From: Cyanobium sp. M30B3
GTDB lineage: Bacteria; Cyanobacteriota; Cyanobacteriia; PCC-6307; Cyanobiaceae
Length of the DNA: 64,000 nucleotides
NCBI GenBank assembly: GCA_018399015.1
Contig: CP073761.1
Span: forward strand, 2,790,001 to 2,854,000
Direction of reading: 5' to 3'
Shown: positions 2,625 through 11,000 of the stretch, in pieces
Layout: each line of letters begins with the position of its first letter
Position numbering within the stretch: position 1 is the first letter of the stretch
Translations under genes and position numbers: made by a program
The notes under the pieces: model-generated
Databases searched by the model: none
What the model saw: only the letters and a program-made list of their open reading frames with translations
What the model was told of the DNA's origin: nothing

Positions 2625-3860
2625 ATGGCCCAGGTGAACGGCAACTATCTCAAGCTCAAGGCGGGCTATCTCTTCCCCGAGATCGCCCGGCGGGTGAAGG
2701 CCTTCAGCGAGGCCAACCCCGAGGCACAGGTGATCCGCCTGGGCATCGGCGACGTGACCGAGCCGCTGCCCGAGGCCTGCCGCGCCGCCATGAAGGCCGC
2801 CATCGACGACATGGGCACCCGCGAGGGCTTCCATGGCTATGGCCCCGAGCAGGGCTACCTGTGGCTGCGCGAGGCGATCGCGACGCACGACTTCCAGGCC
2901 CGCGGCTGCCAGATCTCCGCTGAGGAGATCTTCGTGTCGGATGGCAGCAAGTGCGACAGCGCCAACATCCTCGACATCCTGGGGCCGGACAACCGCATCG
3001 CCGTGACCGACCCGGTGTATCCGGTGTATGTGGACAGCAACGTGATGGCGGGCCGCACCGGCGACGCCGATGACGCCGGCCAGTACGGCGGCCTCACCTA
3101 CCTGCCGATCAATGCCGAGAACGGCTTCACCGCCCAGATCCCCTCGGAGAAGGTGGATCTGATCTACCTCTGCTTCCCCAACAACCCCACCGGCGCCGTG
3201 GCCAGCAGGGAGCAGCTCCAGGCCTGGGTGGATTACGCCCGCGCCAACGGCGCCCTGATCCTGTTTGATGCCGCCTACGAGGCCTTCATCCAGGACCCGG
3301 CGCTGCCCCACTCGATCTATGAGATCGAGGGGGCGCGCGAGTGCGCGATCGAGTTCCGCTCCTTCTCCAAGAACGCTGGCTTCACCGGCACCCGCTGCGC
3401 CCTCACCGTGGTGCCCCGCGGCCTGATGGGCAGCGCCGCCAACGGCGAGCAGGTGGAGCTCTGGGGGCTGTGGAACCGGCGCCAGTGCACCAAGTTCAAC
3501 GGCGTGAGCTACATCGTGCAGCGCGGCGCCGAGGCGGTGTACTCGCCCGAAGGCCAGGCCCAGGTGAAGGGCCTGGTCGCCTTCTACATGGAGAACGCCG
3601 CCATCATCCGCCGCGACCTGAGCGCCGCCGGGTTGGCGGTGTACGGCGGGGAGCAGGCCCCCTACGTGTGGATCAGGACGCCGGACGGCCTGGATTCCTG
3701 GGGCTTCTTCGACCTGCTGCTCAAGCGCGCCAACGTGGTGGGCACCCCCGGCAGTGGCTTCGGCGCCGCCGGCGAAGGCTATTTCCGCCTTTCAGCCTTC
3801 AACAGCCGCGAGAAGGTCATCGAGGCGATGGGCCGAATCAAGGCTGCCCTGGAGGCCTGA
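2625..3860 (+). CDS. dapL: LL-diaminopimelate aminotransferase
   Basis: 411 residues from ATG 2625. It converts tetrahydrodipicolinate to LL-2,6-diaminopimelate with glutamate as amino donor, in the lysine/peptidoglycan pathway used by plants and cyanobacteria. Fold-type I PLP enzyme: the N terminus ([16 protein letters not shown]) is family-typical, PNNPTGA is the cofactor-region motif, and K249 in [13 protein letters not shown] is the expected Schiff-base lysine. The open frame extends upstream to 2283, but that part is antisense to the relic described above; the start at 2625 restores the usual length. Cytoplasmic. Confidence 0.95.
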
Positions 3861-3975
3861 CCTGGACGTGACGCCTGCGGCCTCGCCGGCACCTGAAGGT
3901 TGGCTTCCTAAGCTGGCCGCACTTTCAGAGGCCTTCGCCAACCCGTCGATCGCGCTCTCCAGCCCCCTGATGGCC

Positions 3976-4320
3976 ATGTCTGTTGTTGCCAGCTCCAGCG
4001 CGACCCGCGCCACAGCCACCCCAAGCCGTTCCCCCGGCGGCGCCACCGTGCTGGACAAAGCCCCGGAGCGGGTGCGCCAACCCCAGCGGCGCTACAAGGT
4101 GCTGCTCCACAACGATCCGGTGAACACCATGGAATACGTGGTGACCACCCTGCGCCAGGTGGTGCCGAGCCTGAGTGAGCAGGATGCGATGGCGGTGATG
4201 CTGGAGGCCCACAACACCGGCGTGGGCCTGGTGATCGTGTGTGACATCGAGCCGGCCGAGTTCTACTGCGAGAGCCTCAAGGCCAAGGGGCTCACCAGCA
4301 CGATCGAGCCCGAGGAGTGA
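3976..4320 (+). CDS. clpS: ATP-dependent Clp protease adaptor ClpS
   Basis: 114 residues from ATG 3976 (ATG 3970 is the alternative). ClpS binds N-degron substrates and hands them to ClpC/ClpA. The core begins at RRYKVLLHNDPVNTMEYVV and carries the acidic residues of the amino-end pocket plus the EAHNTGVGLVIV helix; the end, LTSTIEP, is typical of cyanobacteria. The first about 35 residues are a Ser/Thr/Pro-rich variable tail. The stop overlaps the next start (GTGA, 4317-4320), so it is probably co-translated with the CPBP protease gene. Confidence 0.93.
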   Translation: MSVVASSSATRATATPSRSPGGATVLDKAPERVRQPQRRYKVLLHNDPVNTMEYVVTTLRQVVPSLSEQDAMAVMLEAHNTGVGLVIVCDIEPAEFYCESLKAKGLTSTIEPEE

Positions 4321-5186
4321 GCCCACGGCCGCGGGGCACCCTGCTGTACGTGCCCCTCCTCTACGGGGCGGGCTGGCTGCTCTCGCGGCCCCTGGCCCTG
4401 CTGGCTCCCGGCTGGCGGCCCGATCAGCTGGATCTGGCCGGAGCGGGGATCGCGCTGGTTCTGCTGCTGTTCAGCCTGCCGCTGCGGCTGCGGCGGGTGT
4501 GGGGAGAGGCCAAGCCCTGGCATCGGCTCGGGCTGGCGACGGGCAGCCTTGGGGATCGGGCGCGCGGCTTCCTCCAGGGTGTGCTGGTGGCAGGCACTCT
4601 GCTGACAGCAGTGGCCGGCGTGTTGCTGCTGGGCGGCCTGGCCCAGTGGCGCGGTGCCCTCAGCGCGGCCCTGCTGGCCAACGGGCTGGCGCTGCTGCTG
4701 GGGGTGGGCTTTGCCGAGGAGCTGCTGTTCCGGGGCTGGCTGTGGGGGGAGCTGGAGCTGCTGTTGCCTCGGCGGCCGGCGCTGCTGCTGCAGGCGCTGC
4801 TGTTCGCACTGGTGCATCCCTGGCACCGGCTGGCACCGCTCCCAGGACTGGCCCTGCTGGGCGGCCTCACCCTGCTGGGGCTGGCCCTGGCCCTGCTGCG
4901 GCGCCGGCAGAACGGCAATCTCTGGGGGTCGATCGGCCTCCATGGCGGCCTGGTTGGCGGCTGGTTCCTGATCCAGAAGGGACTGCTGAACCTTCAGGCC
5001 CTGGCCCCCAGCTGGCTGGTGGGCCCGGGCGAGGGGGATGTGAACCCGATCGGCGGCCTGCTGGGCTGGCTGGGGCTGGGGCTGCTGCTGCTGGCCCTGC
5101 AGTGGCGTCAGCGCACCGCCGTGGCCAGCGCCCGGCGCCCCTCCACCGGCGCGTGCAGCGCCTCCTCGAGGGGCGCCAGTCCGTAG
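4317..5186 (+). CDS. CPBP family intramembrane metalloprotease
   Basis: 289 residues with a GTG start overlapping the clpS stop. Very hydrophobic, with about 6-8 predicted membrane segments. The CPBP (Abi/CAAX-protease-like) signatures are present: AEELLFRG with the paired glutamates and arginine, and FALVHPWH supplying the metal-binding histidine. Substrate unknown. The last about 26 residues are antisense to the end of the next gene (79 bp convergent overlap) and look low-complexity, so the functional C terminus may lie near LALQWRQR. Confidence 0.88.
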   Translation: MSPRPRGTLLYVPLLYGAGWLLSRPLALLAPGWRPDQLDLAGAGIALVLLLFSLPLRLRRVWGEAKPWHRLGLATGSLGDRARGFLQGVLVAGTLLTAVAGVLLLGGLAQWRGALSAALLANGLALLLGVGFAEELLFRGWLWGELELLLPRRPALLLQALLFALVHPWHRLAPLPGLALLGGLTLLGLALALLRRRQNGNLWGSIGLHGGLVGGWFLIQKGLLNLQALAPSWLVGPGEGDVNPIGGLLGWLGLGLLLLALQWRQRTAVASARRPSTGACSASSRGASP

Positions 5187-6682
5187 TCGCGCTCCAGCAG
5201 GGCCATCACGGTGCGGCCGAAATCGCCTGGGTTGGTGTCGAAGGCCTCCAGGCAGATCCGGCCGAAGGTGCTGCCCATCGGCTCGGGGTTCCAGAGCATC
5301 TTGCGGGCCGTCCAGGGCATCATGCTCATCGGGTTGTAGCCGGGCTGGAGCAGGCCCTGCTCGAAGCCATATTGCTCCAGGTGAGTGTGGGGCTGGAGGC
5401 CGATGAAGAAGATCGCCGGCTCCACCTTGTCGGCCCCGAAGATACGCTCCAGCTCACGGTGATAGGCCACGGTCTGGCGGATGGTTTCCGGCCGCTCGTC
5501 GATCACGTTGAACGAGTAGTTCACCGACACGTGCTCGCTGAAGCCGGCGCGGGCCAGCATGCGGCAGCTCTCCAGAACCGTGCGCAGGTTGTAGCCCATG
5601 CGCATCTTGCGCACGAGCTCCTGGGAGCCGGATGTGATGCCGATCTCGAAATACTCCATACCTGTGGCCACCATCAACTCGGCCAGCTCGGCGTCCAAGT
5701 TGTCGGCGCGGATGTAGGCCGCCCAGCGGATGTCGGTCCAGCCCTCGGCCTGGATGGCCCGCAGCAGGGCCTTGGCGTCCTCGATGTAGCGGCGGGCCGG
5801 GATGAACTGGGCATCGGTGAACCAGAAGCCACGCACGCCGCGCTCGTAGAGCTGGCCCATCTCGGCGATCACCTCCTCCACCGGGTTCACGCGCACGGCC
5901 TTGCCCTCCACCACCGTGTACACGCAATAGCAACAGTTGTGGGGGCAGCCGCGCTTGGTCTGCACCCCCACGTAGAAGTCGCCCGCCTCCAGATACCAGT
6001 CGAGCTGGGGCCAGATCGAGGCGATGTAGTCGTAGTTGCAGGCGGTTTTCTCCATGCCCGCCGGCTGCTCGTGGATCAGGCCGGGCCGGGGCGTCTCGCC
6101 GGCCAGATAGCAGCGCTCACCCGCCAGCGACTCGCCGCGGATCAGCTTCTCCAGCAGCGGTTCCCCCTCCCCCACCGACACCACCGTGCCGCGGGGCAAT
6201 CTGCGGCCCAGCTGCTCGTAGAACACGCTCACGGCGCCGCCGCCGATCACGGCGCGGGCCTCGGGATGGAAGCACCGGGCTCGCTTCACGCCCTGCTTCA
6301 CCAGGCTCAGATTGCGCCAGAGCTCGCCGTAGAACGACGCCATCAGCCCGAGCCCGCCGAAGGCACCGCGCAGGCGCTTGAGCGGATTGCGGGAATAGAA
6401 CACCTCGAACGAGTGCTGCAGCGGGTTGCCGCTGCGGCCGTCCACCGGCGCGTAGATCTGGATGTCGCGCCAGGAGAACACCAGCAAGGTGGGGCGGAAG
6501 GCCTCCACCACCTGGGCCAGCACCCGCTCCACATCGAGCACCGGCACGGCGGCCAGGTCGAGAATGCGCTGGGGCAGGGCCGGGAACTGCTTGTGCAGAT
6601 GATCGGCAAGGTAGATGGGCCCGATCGGGAAGATCGGGTTGCAGGGCAACCGCACCAGCAGCACCCGGTGGTCCACCGCCAT
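5108..6682 (-). CDS. B12-binding-domain radical SAM protein, BchE-like, substrate unknown
   Basis: 524 residues from ATG 6682; an in-frame TTG at 6700 would add six residues. The N terminus (VLLVRLPCNPIFPIGPIYLA) matches cobalamin-binding radical SAM proteins. The cluster motif is KRGCPHNCCYC (CxxxCxxC) with a downstream GFWFTDAQF strand. It broadly resembles the BchE/P-methylase group, but oxygenic picocyanobacteria use an oxygen-dependent cyclase, so a BchE role is not claimed. Only 27 bp separate it from cofG upstream on the same strand, suggesting one transcript diverging from psbA. Confidence 0.82.
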   Translation of the reverse strand: MAVDHRVLLVRLPCNPIFPIGPIYLADHLHKQFPALPQRILDLAAVPVLDVERVLAQVVEAFRPTLLVFSWRDIQIYAPVDGRSGNPLQHSFEVFYSRNPLKRLRGAFGGLGLMASFYGELWRNLSLVKQGVKRARCFHPEARAVIGGGAVSVFYEQLGRRLPRGTVVSVGEGEPLLEKLIRGESLAGERCYLAGETPRPGLIHEQPAGMEKTACNYDYIASIWPQLDWYLEAGDFYVGVQTKRGCPHNCCYCVYTVVEGKAVRVNPVEEVIAEMGQLYERGVRGFWFTDAQFIPARRYIEDAKALLRAIQAEGWTDIRWAAYIRADNLDAELAELMVATGMEYFEIGITSGSQELVRKMRMGYNLRTVLESCRMLARAGFSEHVSVNYSFNVIDERPETIRQTVAYHRELERIFGADKVEPAIFFIGLQPHTHLEQYGFEQGLLQPGYNPMSMMPWTARKMLWNPEPMGSTFGRICLEAFDTNPGDFGRTVMALLERDYGLAPLEEALHAPVEGRRALATAVR

Positions 6683-6709
6683 GGCCTTGGACGCCGGCAA
6701 AAGCGGACG

Positions 6710-7708
6710 CTAACAAGCATCTGCCAGCGTCTGGGCCGCTTGCCACACCCTCCGGGCCAGCGGGCGCGGCAAGCGGGGAATCCAGGCGCCATGGACGCAG
6801 AGGCGGGGCCGCAGCGTCCAGCCGGCCTCGGCCAGCCGCCGTTGCAGCAGCAGAGGCAACGGCTGGGGGTAGGCGGGGTTGATCACGTCCTGCCCATCGA
6901 TGCCGCCCAGGTCGTCGATACCGGCCTCCAGGGCCTCGGGCAGGGTGTCGAGGGGCCAGAGGTTGGGGGGCAGCTGCAGGTGCACCTCCGGCGGCAGGAT
7001 CGCCCGCGCCTCGCTGATCGTGGCCAGCAGCTCCTGCTGCGCGGCCCGGCCGAGGGGTTGGGCGGCCGCACCATCCGGGCGGTACGGCTGCAGGATCACT
7101 TCCTGTATGTGCCCCCAGGTGTGCTGCAGCAGGGCGATCAGCTCCAGGGCGTCGCGGCGCTGCGCCGGCGTTTCCCCCAGCCCCAGCAACAGGCCGGTGG
7201 TGAAGGGAATGCCCAGGCGTCCGGCCTGCTCCAACTGGCCGAGGCGCAGCTCCAGCCGCTTGCTGGGTGCCTGGCGGTGCCAGCGCTCCACGGCCGGGCC
7301 CAGGCCCTCCAGCATCAGCCCCATCGAGGGGTTGAGGCGCCCCAGGGCCGCCATCTCGCTCCGGCTGAGCGGCCCGGCATTGGTGTGGGGCAGGCAACCC
7401 TGGGCCAGGGCGAGGCGGCTGAGGGCGAGCAGCCGGGCAAACCAGGGGCCACGGGCCGGCGAATCCGGCGGCACCTCGCCGCTGAGCAACAGCACCTCGC
7501 GGGCCTCAGGCCGGGCCCGCATCCGGGCCAGGGCTTCCGGGTCGCCCAGCAGGGCGGGCGCAGCGGGGCCATCCACTCCGCTTTCCGCCAGCGGCCTGCG
7601 AAAACCGCAGTAGCCACAGGCGTTGAAGCAGGCGCGGGCAGGCACCAGGGTGAGGCTGGGACTCCAGGTGACGACCCGGGATCGCAACGCCGGCACAGAA
7701 ACGGACAT
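6710..7708 (-). CDS. cofG: 7,8-didemethyl-8-hydroxy-5-deazariboflavin (FO) synthase subunit 1
   Basis: 332 residues from ATG 7708. CofG is the radical SAM half of FO synthase; with CofH it makes the deazaflavin chromophore, which cyanobacteria use mainly as a photolyase antenna. The cluster motif is ACFNACGYCGF (CxxxCxxC), near residues 27-36. GLLLGLGETPAQRRDALE and DLGGIDGQDVINP are family-typical segments. CofH is not in this window. It begins 161 bp from psbA on the opposite strand, so the two promoters share one intergenic region. Confidence 0.9.
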   Translation of the reverse strand: MSVSVPALRSRVVTWSPSLTLVPARACFNACGYCGFRRPLAESGVDGPAAPALLGDPEALARMRARPEAREVLLLSGEVPPDSPARGPWFARLLALSRLALAQGCLPHTNAGPLSRSEMAALGRLNPSMGLMLEGLGPAVERWHRQAPSKRLELRLGQLEQAGRLGIPFTTGLLLGLGETPAQRRDALELIALLQHTWGHIQEVILQPYRPDGAAAQPLGRAAQQELLATISEARAILPPEVHLQLPPNLWPLDTLPEALEAGIDDLGGIDGQDVINPAYPQPLPLLLQRRLAEAGWTLRPRLCVHGAWIPRLPRPLARRVWQAAQTLADAC

Positions 7709-7713
7709 CCCCC

Positions 7714-7743
7714 TTCACAAACCCCGCAATGTTCTGTTACAGT
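7714..7743 (+). promoter_or_regulatory. Candidate psbA promoter
   Basis: TTCACA (7714-7719), an 18-bp spacer, then TACAGT (7738-7743). This is a plausible sigma-70-type pair in the intergenic region. It would put the transcription start near 7750 and leave a leader of about 120 nt before the psbA ATG. The call rests on the sequence match only. Confidence 0.4.
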
Positions 7744-7869
7744 CACTGGCGACGGGATTCCGTCCCCGGCGGTTCCCCCCTGTGGGTTCCCGTCTTACTT
7801 ACCCCGGCTGAGCGGGGCTCCTGATTCGTTCAGGGGCATCCACCAAGCCACCACCCCTTTCTCGTTCTC

Positions 7870-8949
7870 ATGACCACCACTCTCCAGCAGCGCTCCGGCG
7901 CTAACAGCTGGCAGCAGTTCTGTGAGTGGATCACCTCCACCAACAACCGCCTCTATGTGGGCTGGTTCGGTGTGCTGATGATCCCCACCCTCCTGGCTGC
8001 CACCATCTGTTTCGTTGTGGCGTTCATCGCCGCTCCCCCCGTCGACATCGACGGCATCCGTGAGCCCGTGGCCGGCTCCCTGCTCTACGGCAACAACATC
8101 ATTTCCGGTGCTGTTGTGCCCTCTAGCAACGCCATCGGCCTGCACTTCTACCCCATCTGGGAAGCCGCCAGCCTCGACGAGTGGCTGTACAACGGCGGTC
8201 CCTTCCAGCTGGTGATCTTCCACTTCCTGATTGGCATCTACGCCTACATGGGTCGTGAGTGGGAACTCTCCTACCGCCTCGGCATGCGCCCCTGGATCTG
8301 CGTCGCCTACAGCGCCCCTGTAGCCGCTGCCAGCGCCGTGTTCCTGGTATATCCCTTCGGTCAGGGTTCCTTCTCGGATGCCATGCCCCTGGGTATCAGC
8401 GGCACCTTCAACTACATGTTGGTGTTCCAGGCTGAGCACAACATCCTGATGCACCCTTTCCACATGCTGGGCGTGGCCGGTGTGTTCGGCGGCAGCCTGT
8501 TCTCCGCCATGCACGGCTCGCTGGTGACCAGCAGCCTGGTGCGTGAGACCACCGAGAGCGAGAGCCAGAACTACGGCTACAAGTTCGGCCAAGAGGAAGA
8601 GACCTACAACATCGTGGCTGCTCACGGTTACTTCGGTCGCCTGATCTTCCAATACGCCAGCTTCAACAACAGCCGCAGCCTTCACTTCTTCCTGGCTGCC
8701 TGGCCTGTGATTGGCATCTGGTTCACCGCCCTGGGCGTGAGCACGATGGCGTTCAACCTGAACGGCTTCAACTTCAACCAGTCGATCCTGGATTCCCAGG
8801 GTCGGGTGCTGAACACCTGGGCCGACGTGCTGAACCGCGCTGGTCTGGGTATGGAAGTGATGCACGAGCGCAACGCTCACAACTTCCCCCTCGACCTGGC
8901 TGCTGCAGAAGCCACCCCCGTGGCTCTGACCGCCCCTGCTATCGGCTGA
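7870..8949 (+). CDS. psbA: Photosystem II D1 protein, Glu130 form
   Basis: 359 residues. D1 carries the redox tyrosine, the Mn-cluster ligands and the QB site in the thylakoid membrane. Five membrane helices are evident. Residue 130 is Glu ([15 protein letters not shown]), which in cyanobacteria marks the D1:2 high-light type; the D1:1 form has Gln there. The oxygen-evolving region QGSFSDAMP and the [11 protein letters not shown] stretch are intact. The C-terminal extension after NFPLDLA is removed by CtpA. Codon use is more biased and less GC-rich than neighbours, as expected for a very highly expressed gene. There is no Shine-Dalgarno motif before the ATG. Confidence 0.98.
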
Positions 8950-9059: not shown

Positions 9060-9167
9060 GTTGCTGAACACCTGCCTGGATTGCTCCGCCTGGCCGCCGT
9101 TGCAAGATGGCCGCCTGGCACGTGCTGCCGGTGCTGCTCGGTAGGCTCGGCCCAGCGCACAACCGCC

Positions 9168-10256
9168 ATGGGCAGCAGCTTCGGCCAGCTCTTTCGCATC
9201 AGCACCTTCGGCGAATCCCACGGCGGCGGCGTGGGCGTGATCGTGGAGGGCTGTCCGCCACGGCTTGCGCTCGATCTCGCAGCGATTCAGGCCGAACTGG
9301 ATCGGCGCAAGCCCGGCCAGAGCAGGATCACCACCCCCCGCAAGGAAGACGACCGGGTGGAGATCCTCAGCGGTCTGCTGGATGGGGTGACCCTCGGCAC
9401 GCCGATCGCCATGGTGGTGCGCAACAAGGACCAGCGACCCCAGGATTACAGGGAGATGGAGGTGGCCTTCCGCCCCTCCCACGCCGATGCCACCTACCAG
9501 GCGAAATACGGCATCCAGGCCCGTAGCGGCGGTGGTCGGGCCTCCGCCCGGGAAACGATCGGCCGCGTTGCCGCCGGTGCCATCGCCAAACAGCTGCTGG
9601 CCAGGGCCCACGACACCGAGGTGCTGGCCTGGGTGCAGCGCATTCACACGATCGAGGCCGCCGTGGATCCAGCGGCGGTGAGCCTGGAGGCGATCGAGAG
9701 CAACATCGTGCGCTGCCCCGATGCCGCCAGCGCCGAGCGCATGATCGAGCGGATCGAGGCGATCGGCCGCGAGGGCGACTCCTGCGGTGGCCTGATCACC
9801 TGCGTGGTGCGCCGGCCGCCGGTGGGACTGGGCATGCCGGTGTTCGACAAGCTCGAGGCCGACCTGGCCAAGGCGGTGATGTCGCTGCCGGCCACCAAGG
9901 GCTTTGAGATCGGCTCGGGCTTCGGCGGCACCCTCCTCAAGGGCAGCGAGCACAACGACGCCTTCCTGCCCACCGTTGATGGCTCCCTGCACACCGCCAC
10001 CAACAACTCCGGCGGCATCCAGGGCGGCATCAGCAACGGCGAGGACATCGTGATCCGGGTGGCCTTCAAGCCCACCGCCACGATCCGCAAGGAGCAGGCC
10101 ACGATCAACGCCGCAGGCGAAGCCACCACCCTGGCCGCCAAGGGCCGCCACGATCCCTGTGTGCTGCCGCGGGCCGTGCCGATGGTGGAGGCGATGGTGG
10201 CCCTGGTGCTGGCCGACCACCTGCTGCGCCAGCAGGGCCAGTGCAGCCTGTGGTGA
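9168..10256 (+). CDS. aroC: Chorismate synthase
   Basis: 362 residues from ATG 9168. It catalyses the FMNH2-dependent 1,4-elimination of phosphate from EPSP, giving chorismate, the last step of the shikimate pathway. The start [19 protein letters not shown] carries the FGESHG signature. Later signatures are GRASARET and [13 protein letters not shown]. The frame is open to 9081, but the Ser-Phe-Gly start is invariant in the family, so 9168 is chosen. The end overlaps an inverted repeat shared with the converging toxin gene. Confidence 0.96.
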
Positions 10257-10290
10257 GGGAGCTCGGCGAACAGAGCCCTCACCACAGGCT
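10245..10290. terminator. Inverted repeat spanning both converging stop codons (bidirectional terminator-like)
   Basis: AGCCTGTGGTGAGGG (10245-10259) and its exact reverse complement (10276-10290) are separated by 16 nt. Each arm is coding: in aroC and, on the other strand, in the PIN toxin gene, the arm reads Ser-Leu-Trp-stop. No T-run follows either arm. A role in transcription termination or mRNA 3'-end protection for both genes is likely but inferred. Confidence 0.7.
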
Positions 10291-10698
10291 GCGCACATGG
10301 GCATAGGAGCGGATCTTGCTGTCGGCACTGACCAGCGGAATCGCCAGCGCTCGTGCCTGAGCCACCAGAAACCGGTCGGCCGGATCCGCATGAAACGGCT
10401 CCGGCAGGCGCGTCGCCGCTGCGGCCACGGCGGGATCCAGAGCGACGAGCCGAACCGCCGGGTGGGCGGCCAGCAGCGCAAGCCAGCGCTCCACATCAAG
10501 GCTGAGGGCGAGGCGTCCGCGATTCACCAGCATCGCCACCTCCCAGCAGCTGATCGCCGAGACAAGCAGCCCGGATGTCCCACCAGGGAGGCGGACGCTG
10601 TCGATCTCCTGATCGATGGCCTCCCGTGCCGCCGCGGAGAGGCGCTGATGATCCCCACCGGCCCACCAGATCACGGCATGGGTGTCGAGCAGGATCAC
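10279..10698 (-). CDS. PIN-domain toxin (VapC-like ribonuclease)
   Basis: 139 residues. PIN-domain toxins are Mg-dependent ribonucleases neutralised by a partner antitoxin. The acidic active-site residues fit the family: Asp in LLDTHAVIWW near the start, Glu in SAISCWEVAML, and the DPADRFLVAQA motif near residue 108, followed by LVSADSKIRSY. Its start overlaps the antitoxin stop by 4 bp (ATGA). The pair sits between aroC and eda; in related picocyanobacteria I recall those two adjacent, suggesting insertion. Confidence 0.88.
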   Translation of the reverse strand: MILLDTHAVIWWAGGDHQRLSAAAREAIDQEIDSVRLPGGTSGLLVSAISCWEVAMLVNRGRLALSLDVERWLALLAAHPAVRLVALDPAVAAAATRLPEPFHADPADRFLVAQARALAIPLVSADSKIRSYAHVRSLW

Positions 10699-11000
10699 GC
10701 CAGGGCTTCCCAGTCGTTCTCCCCAACCGACTCGAACGGTTCGTCAAAGCGGAGCACCGAGCCGCGCAACAGCTCGAGAGGATCAGTGTCGGAGTACCCA
10801 GCCGGCCGATAGGGCCGCACCTCGATGCTGGGCCGGCCGTGATCCGTCACCACCAGGGGCTCACCGCTTGCCTCCACCTGCCGGAACAGTTCCAGGGCAT
10901 GGGCCTTGAAGTGGGATTTGGAAACCTGCCGCGGCGACCCGCTCACCATCGAGGCGGGGGATGGCGTAGCTGGGGATGGCGTAACGGGGGATGGGTCCAT
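10695..11000 (-). CDS. Phd/YefM-type antitoxin
   Basis: 101 residues from ATG 11000, or 84 from ATG 10949. The conserved part, RQVSKSHFKAHALELFRQVE then GEPLVVTDHGRPSIEV, is the DNA-binding fold of Phd/YefM antitoxins; the tail (DPLELLRGSVLRFDEPFE) would wrap the PIN toxin. The extra N terminus is a short Pro-Ser-Pro/Thr repeat encoded by near-identical GATGGCGTA units, so 10949 may be the real start. It is the first gene of the two-gene operon and probably autoregulates it. Confidence 0.85.
   Translation of the reverse strand: MDPSPVTPSPATPSPASMVSGSPRQVSKSHFKAHALELFRQVEASGEPLVVTDHGRPSIEVRPYRPAGYSDTDPLELLRGSVLRFDEPFESVGENDWEALA

Follow-up and report, generated by a model that had tools for sequence, protein, structure and literature searches.

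A radical SAM enzyme of the Slr0320 family is retained in cyanobacterial symbionts without photosystem II and missing from some genomes that have it

We describe a radical S-adenosylmethionine (SAM) gene of Cyanobium sp. M30B3, found in a 64,000-nucleotide stretch of its genome (contig CP073761.1, positions 2,790,001 to 2,854,000; hereafter the window), where it lies behind cofG and divergent from psbA. The gene belongs to the family of slr0320 of Synechocystis sp. PCC 6803, whose NCBI model, NF045585, is named "photosystem II high light acclimation radical SAM protein". We found that slr0320 is not dedicated to photosystem II (PSII), because it is kept in six of six symbionts that lack PSII or photosynthesis altogether and is missing from 21 genomes that bear PSII. 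The family, its mutant and its link to light have already been published. The two-way separation from PSII was not found in our searches of the open-licence literature and is the new point here.

Retention of slr0320 without photosystem II

The six symbionts belong to one family and comprise four endosymbionts of the Epithemia/Rhopalodia type and two UCYN-A-like genomes. Four of them were named by identical slr0320 contig coordinates in database records: the endosymbionts of Epithemia turgida (EtSB; G354, NZ_AP012549.1), Rhopalodia gibberula (G384, NZ_AP018341.1) and Epithemia clementina (G632, NZ_CP123991.1), and Cyanobacterium sp. uoEpiScrs1 (G633, NZ_OX373462.1). The other two, G598 and G599, have assemblies of 1,491,611 and 1,443,806 bp and fit UCYN-A. 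The slr0320 gene is full length and free of stops in all six, with scores of 1030.6-1049.7 bits against NF045585.

Neither psbA nor psbD has a match in G598 and G599, where psaA is intact. EtSB and uoEpiScrs1 contain psbA-family remnants with stops only and give no psaA match. For the R. gibberula and E. clementina symbionts the loss of PSII rests on psaA remnants with stops together with the papers. According to PMC11070190, UCYN-A has lost PSII and kept photosystem I (PSI), while the diazoplasts of Epithemia have lost PSII and retain thylakoids and a complete respiratory chain. The R. gibberula symbiont is reported to have no functional PSI or PSII genes, and EtSB to have dysfunctional chlorophyll genes and to have lost the synthesis of both chlorophyll and B12 (PMC5638926). 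Proteins for PSI, PSII, phycobiliproteins, phylloquinone and tocopherol are lost from rhopalodian endosymbionts (PMC12903740). The term "radical SAM" does not occur in the main text of PMC12903740, though the gene may be listed in its supplementary tables, and our searches of open-licence papers found no link between slr0320 and symbionts.

In the diazoplasts the constraint on slr0320 is somewhat looser, as it is on the neighbouring genes, yet purifying selection on it is clear. Pairwise dN/dS values of slr0320 are 0.08-0.15 among the Epithemia-type symbionts (flanking genes 0.07-0.28) and 0.056 in the UCYN-A-like pair, the second lowest of 11 genes compared (flanking genes 0.03-0.22); free-living pairs have about 0.03. 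Furthermore, 170 alignment columns, including the three radical SAM cysteines, are invariant across 100 rows from PSII-bearing genomes. EtSB has two changes in these columns, uoEpiScrs1 and each of the UCYN-A-like genomes one, and the other two symbionts none, compared to a leave-one-out maximum of three among the PSII-bearing rows.

Absence of slr0320 from genomes with photosystem II

Of 388 genomes sampled across the class, 344 have a match over the NF045585 cut-off, as do 110 of 121 genomes of the window's own family and 30/38, 143/145 and 45/50 genomes of three other families, the last being that of the symbionts (the class and family draws overlap). Nonetheless, no slr0320 match was found in 21 genomes of at least 95% completeness whose psbA exceeds the cut-off, other matches there being weaker than an E value of about 1e-24. 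Eighteen of these come from one psbA search and three from another; less complete genomes were left out, as were G165 and G232, which lack slr0320 and have psbA in pieces only. Five of the 21 (G079, G157, G300, G323 and G329) consist of at most five contigs. A factor dedicated to PSII is expected to track the presence of PSII, and slr0320 departs from this expectation in both directions.

Two genomes, G506 and G540 (genus g235, family f32), are the sole ones without slr0320 among the 145 of their family. In size and contig number they resemble the diatom-symbiotic Richelia, so another symbiont lineage may have lost slr0320 while keeping PSII. Many of the slr0320-lacking genomes also carry an additional, atypical D1 gene that scores about 455-605 bits against the psbA model (G012, G029, G079, G082, G091, G161, G203, G300, G323, G329, G347 and G360). 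Some of these genes cluster with psbD-like genes, as in far-red light clusters. A link between the loss of slr0320 and the atypical D1 was dropped, these genes having been scored in slr0320-lacking genomes.

Protein architecture and relatives

The window gene matches NF045585 with 967.7 bits (cut-off 775) over profile positions 2-511 of 511, and is thus nearly full length and in the same family as Slr0320 of Synechocystis, with the same two-domain, B12-type architecture. The open reading frame (ORF) list starts it at a TTG at position 6700; we prefer the ATG at 6682, which gives a 524-aa protein. The Pfam radical SAM domain scores 63.9 bits, and the CX3CX2C motif lies at residues 252-259 (numbering of the 530-aa ORF) with C252, C256 and C259 invariant in alignments of 45 and 100 rows.

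In an AlphaFold2 model built from 45 sequences (mean pLDDT 72.7, pTM 0.76), the N-terminal domain is of Rossmann type and carries a long insertion of helices (residues about 93-144); it is followed by the radical SAM barrel and a C-terminal part made of helices. With Foldseek and VIA-align, model residues 9-498 match cobalamin-binding TsrM (Z 19.7 over 411 residues, 3.7 Å), and similar residue ranges match OxsB (Z 17.7), TokK (17.1), CysS (17.1), AprD4 (16.6) and MgmA (16.5), all well above the MiaB/RimO group that comes next at Z 12-13. The model has a B12-type Rossmann domain in front of a radical SAM barrel, as in class B enzymes, and supports a cobalamin-type radical SAM enzyme by fold, with cobalamin binding putative. 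The original prediction, made from the DNA letters, had proposed just such an enzyme; the two-domain fold match bears it out, while the Pfam B12-binding domain stays below threshold.

TsrM, OxsB, TokK, CysS and MgmA have the two-domain fold and the CX3CX2C motif in common with Slr0320. They differ from it in their substrates, at 12-18% identity, and the helical N-terminal insertion is Slr0320's own. MgmA, for example, is a glutamine C-methylase of methyl-coenzyme M reductase. The nearest solved relative by sequence is the radical SAM diol dehydratase AprD4 (5.7e-14). Since AprD4 has the same fold and is a dehydratase, the type of reaction of Slr0320 cannot be read from the fold. BzaD, which C-methylates an aromatic ring, is among the sub-threshold family matches of the protein.

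Where the enzyme would act

The insertion mutant of slr0320 in Synechocystis has unimpaired growth under normal light and poor growth under high light, with an amount, assembly and DCBQ-supported activity of PSII that are normal or higher (PMC8065906). In high light, its net photosynthesis and whole-chain rate are down and steady fluorescence (Fs) is raised; QA- re-oxidation is slower in the fast and middle phases, which involve bound and free plastoquinone, and the expression of psbL, psbH and psbI is altered (PMC8065906). Its authors did not exclude the cytochrome b6f complex and proposed a methylation of plastoquinone (PMC8065906). This phenotype reads as trouble at native plastoquinone or a later step rather than in the PSII core.

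Where this physiology intersects with the gene content of the symbionts, the plastoquinone/b6f segment is the best-supported site. We therefore lean, at somewhat less than even confidence, towards an enzyme that is not dedicated to PSII and that modifies some component of the thylakoid electron transport that photosynthesis and respiration have in common. The modification would be a radical one, probably a C-methylation, and would most likely be placed in the plastoquinone pool or on the quinone-reactive side of one of the plastoquinone-using complexes. Upon loss of the enzyme native plastoquinone would be handled poorly, QA re-oxidation would slow and high light would become harmful, whereas PSII would still perform normally with an artificial quinone.

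Several points weigh against this proposal. The intersection also permits anything else that is kept in all six symbionts, such as translation, tRNA, lipids or haem. Because plastoquinone and b6f are needed in the 21 slr0320-lacking genomes too, the modification must be dispensable or replaced there. The Pfam B12-binding domain reaches 16.4 of 32.1 bits, and cobalamin dependence is unproven because slr0320 is kept in EtSB, which is reported to be unable to make B12 (PMC5638926); EtSB also keeps metH. PSI activity is unchanged in the mutant, proteomics gave no change in b6f subunits, and PMC8065906 names the acceptor side of PSII as the likely site.

The main alternative is a general housekeeping modifier acting on tRNA, rRNA, a lipid or a translation factor, with an indirect effect on electron transport. 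Such an enzyme would suit the near-universal presence in the class, the retention in reduced symbiont genomes and the changed expression of several small PSII genes in the mutant (PMC8065906), and MiaB/RimO-type enzymes do share the fold. Nevertheless, we hold it to be rather unlikely: mutant growth is normal in normal light, the effect is centred on plastoquinone steps, and the fold is nearer to the cobalamin-dependent enzymes than to MiaB/RimO.

Somewhat less likely still is the idea of PMC8065906 that slr0320 methylates the plastoquinone ring itself. The defect from QA to QB alongside normal activity with an artificial quinone (PMC8065906), retention in symbionts that still respire, and a cyanobacterial plastoquinone pathway that a 2020 review describes as incomplete (PMC7133116) are all consistent with it. 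The sub-threshold match to BzaD, a C-methylase of an aromatic ring, also points this way. Against it stand the normal growth of the mutant in normal light (PMC8065906) and the 21 near-complete psbA genomes without slr0320. Two further papers cited in PMC13386864 also count against it: a 2026 one reports plastoquinone made heterologously with the use of a cyanobacterial hydroxylase, and another reports cyanobacterial quinol C-methyltransferases.

A PSII protein or assembly step as the target, which the NCBI family name implies, would agree with the high-light phenotype and the altered psbL, psbH and psbI (PMC8065906), and with the psbA or Low-PSII-accumulation/Rep27-like genes (PF11998) that adjoin slr0320 in the window's family. 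We consider it very unlikely given the intact, constrained gene in genomes without PSII, its absence from 21 genomes with PSII and the fact that none of the 60 loci studied in other families has psbA next to it.

Gene order and the neighbouring genes

The window features are listed in Table 1; the source genome is a single contig of 3.18 Mb. As described in the original prediction, the two leftward genes are 27 bp apart, a gap that follows from the placement of the slr0320 start at ATG 6682, and they face psbA. The identity of the one nearer to psbA as cofG also held: the ORF scores 264 bits with NF004884 (cut-off 209) and lies slightly below the cut-off of TIGR03550 (198.7 of 213.35 bits). 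A cofH candidate elsewhere in the genome (C1:1472509-1473531) has 352.6 bits, below the cut-off of 374.1.

Table 1. Features of the window around the slr0320-family gene
Feature	Position	Strand	Remark
ORF containing clpS	3754..4320	+	regular downstream neighbour in the window's family
CPBP/Rce1-type membrane protease gene	4317..5186	+	convergent with slr0320; regular downstream neighbour in the window's family
slr0320-family radical SAM gene, N-terminal B12-type domain	5108..6682	-	NF045585
cofG, FO synthase subunit 1	6710..7708	-	NF004884
intergenic region common to cofG-slr0320 and psbA, 161 bp	7709..7869	.	two HLR1-like half-sites
psbA, Glu130	7870..8949	+	divergent from cofG-slr0320
aroC (chorismate synthase)	9081..10256	+	downstream of psbA

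The family gene-order set contains 40 loci, 37 of which have at least 2.5 kb upstream and three of which are truncated there. psbA faces slr0320 in 24 of the 37 loci, in 16 with no gene between them and in eight with cofG in between, and cofG is directly behind slr0320 in 10 of the 40. Both adjacencies exceed chance in the window's family. The slr0320 tree, obtained by a short search with many weak forks, places the psbA neighbourhood as basal in the family and absent from a single derived clade and from two further rows. Outside the family, neither psbA nor cofG was found within about 7 kb of slr0320 in 60 loci. The proposed conservation of the trio accordingly applies to part of the window's family and does not extend beyond it.

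Among 41 family genomes searched, cofG exceeds the cut-off in 11 and is always directly behind slr0320, so the adjacency of the two radical SAM genes, whose lack of conservation the original prediction had named as its refutation, is conserved in 11 of 11. The two genes are separable all the same, because each occurs without the other: slr0320 stands without cofG in the remaining 30 family genomes, cofG is present in 15 of 19 tested genomes that lack slr0320, and EtSB retains slr0320 with a broken cofG. In the other five symbionts (G598, G599, G384, G632 and G633) cofG is intact, which suggests a benefit of FO synthesis that does not depend on photosynthesis. CofG is an enzyme distinct from Slr0320 and merely its neighbour. 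Hence, despite the conserved slot and the half-sites described below, a photoprotective or tetrapyrrole product made jointly by slr0320 and CofG/FO under common light control is highly improbable, given the independent occurrence in both directions and the adjacency in 0 of 60 loci outside the family. Chlorophyll is an unlikely substrate because slr0320 is intact in EtSB, whose chlorophyll genes are reportedly dysfunctional (PMC5638926).

The part of the prediction that concerned light fared better. A light link is published for the radical SAM family (PMC8065906, PMC6331805), and in Synechocystis slr0320 is listed with an HLR1 motif on its upstream side (PMC6331805). Within the window's family, the intergenic regions on the psbA side are enriched in HLR1-type half-sites (exact in 11 of 25, versus 0.84 in shuffles). 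These sites are mostly on the psbA strand, as are the two in the window, each with one mismatch, and they may serve psbA only. We regard cofG and psbA as lineage-specific neighbours of slr0320 that share light regulation with it at most.

Other neighbours were considered as PSII context. A gene with the DUF1830 domain is the usual divergent neighbour outside the family (47/60 loci by cluster count, one member tested). Because this domain covers PirC/CfrA (PMC6603209, PMC7344720) as well as the PsbO-binding PirN (PMC13205821), and the two are indistinguishable here, it was dropped as evidence for PSII. By cluster count, 14 of the 40 family loci, L085, L086 and L097 among them, have a small Low-PSII-accumulation1/Rep27 gene (PF11998, domain tested in L076) on the upstream side of slr0320 or psbA. 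It is family-specific and was rejected as a general PSII context. A phage copy of slr0320 was likewise rejected: none is found in IMG/VR, and GenBank phages give only one 24% partial match. No phage cofG was found in our searches.

The window psbA scores 783.3 bits (cut-off 596.05) and encodes Glu130, the high-light D1:2 type. It is one of four copies in the genome; it (at 2797870) and the copy at C1:558487 have the same family score among these copies (783.1 bits), the copy at 1767374 has Gln130, and the one at 2922765 is divergent (714.3 bits). Further along, at 10279-11000 on the minus strand, a PIN-domain gene (PF01850, 58.9 bits) overlaps a Phd/YefM-like gene that is slightly below its cut-off (27.5 of 29.8 bits). 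This pair is probably a VapBC-type toxin-antitoxin system inserted between aroC and a KDPG-aldolase gene.

Discussion

The PSII acclimation name of NF045585 is at odds with the retention of the gene in genomes without PSII and is probably misleading. Symbiont genomes act as natural PSII knock-outs, and the search for the substrate narrows to what Epithemia-type diazoplasts and UCYN-A retain. This excludes PSII and, through the diazoplasts, also PSI, chlorophyll (by EtSB), phycobilins, phylloquinone and tocopherol. It is possible, though we put it forward tentatively, that Slr0320 installs a so far unrecognised radical C-modification on one of the carriers or complexes of the shared chain across nearly all cyanobacteria. 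PSII would then merely report its loss, and the modification would still be needed in N2-fixing symbionts of diatoms and haptophytes that live without photosynthesis or without water splitting. With the substrate search narrowed in this way, an uncharacterised and highly conserved enzyme becomes directly testable in Synechocystis.

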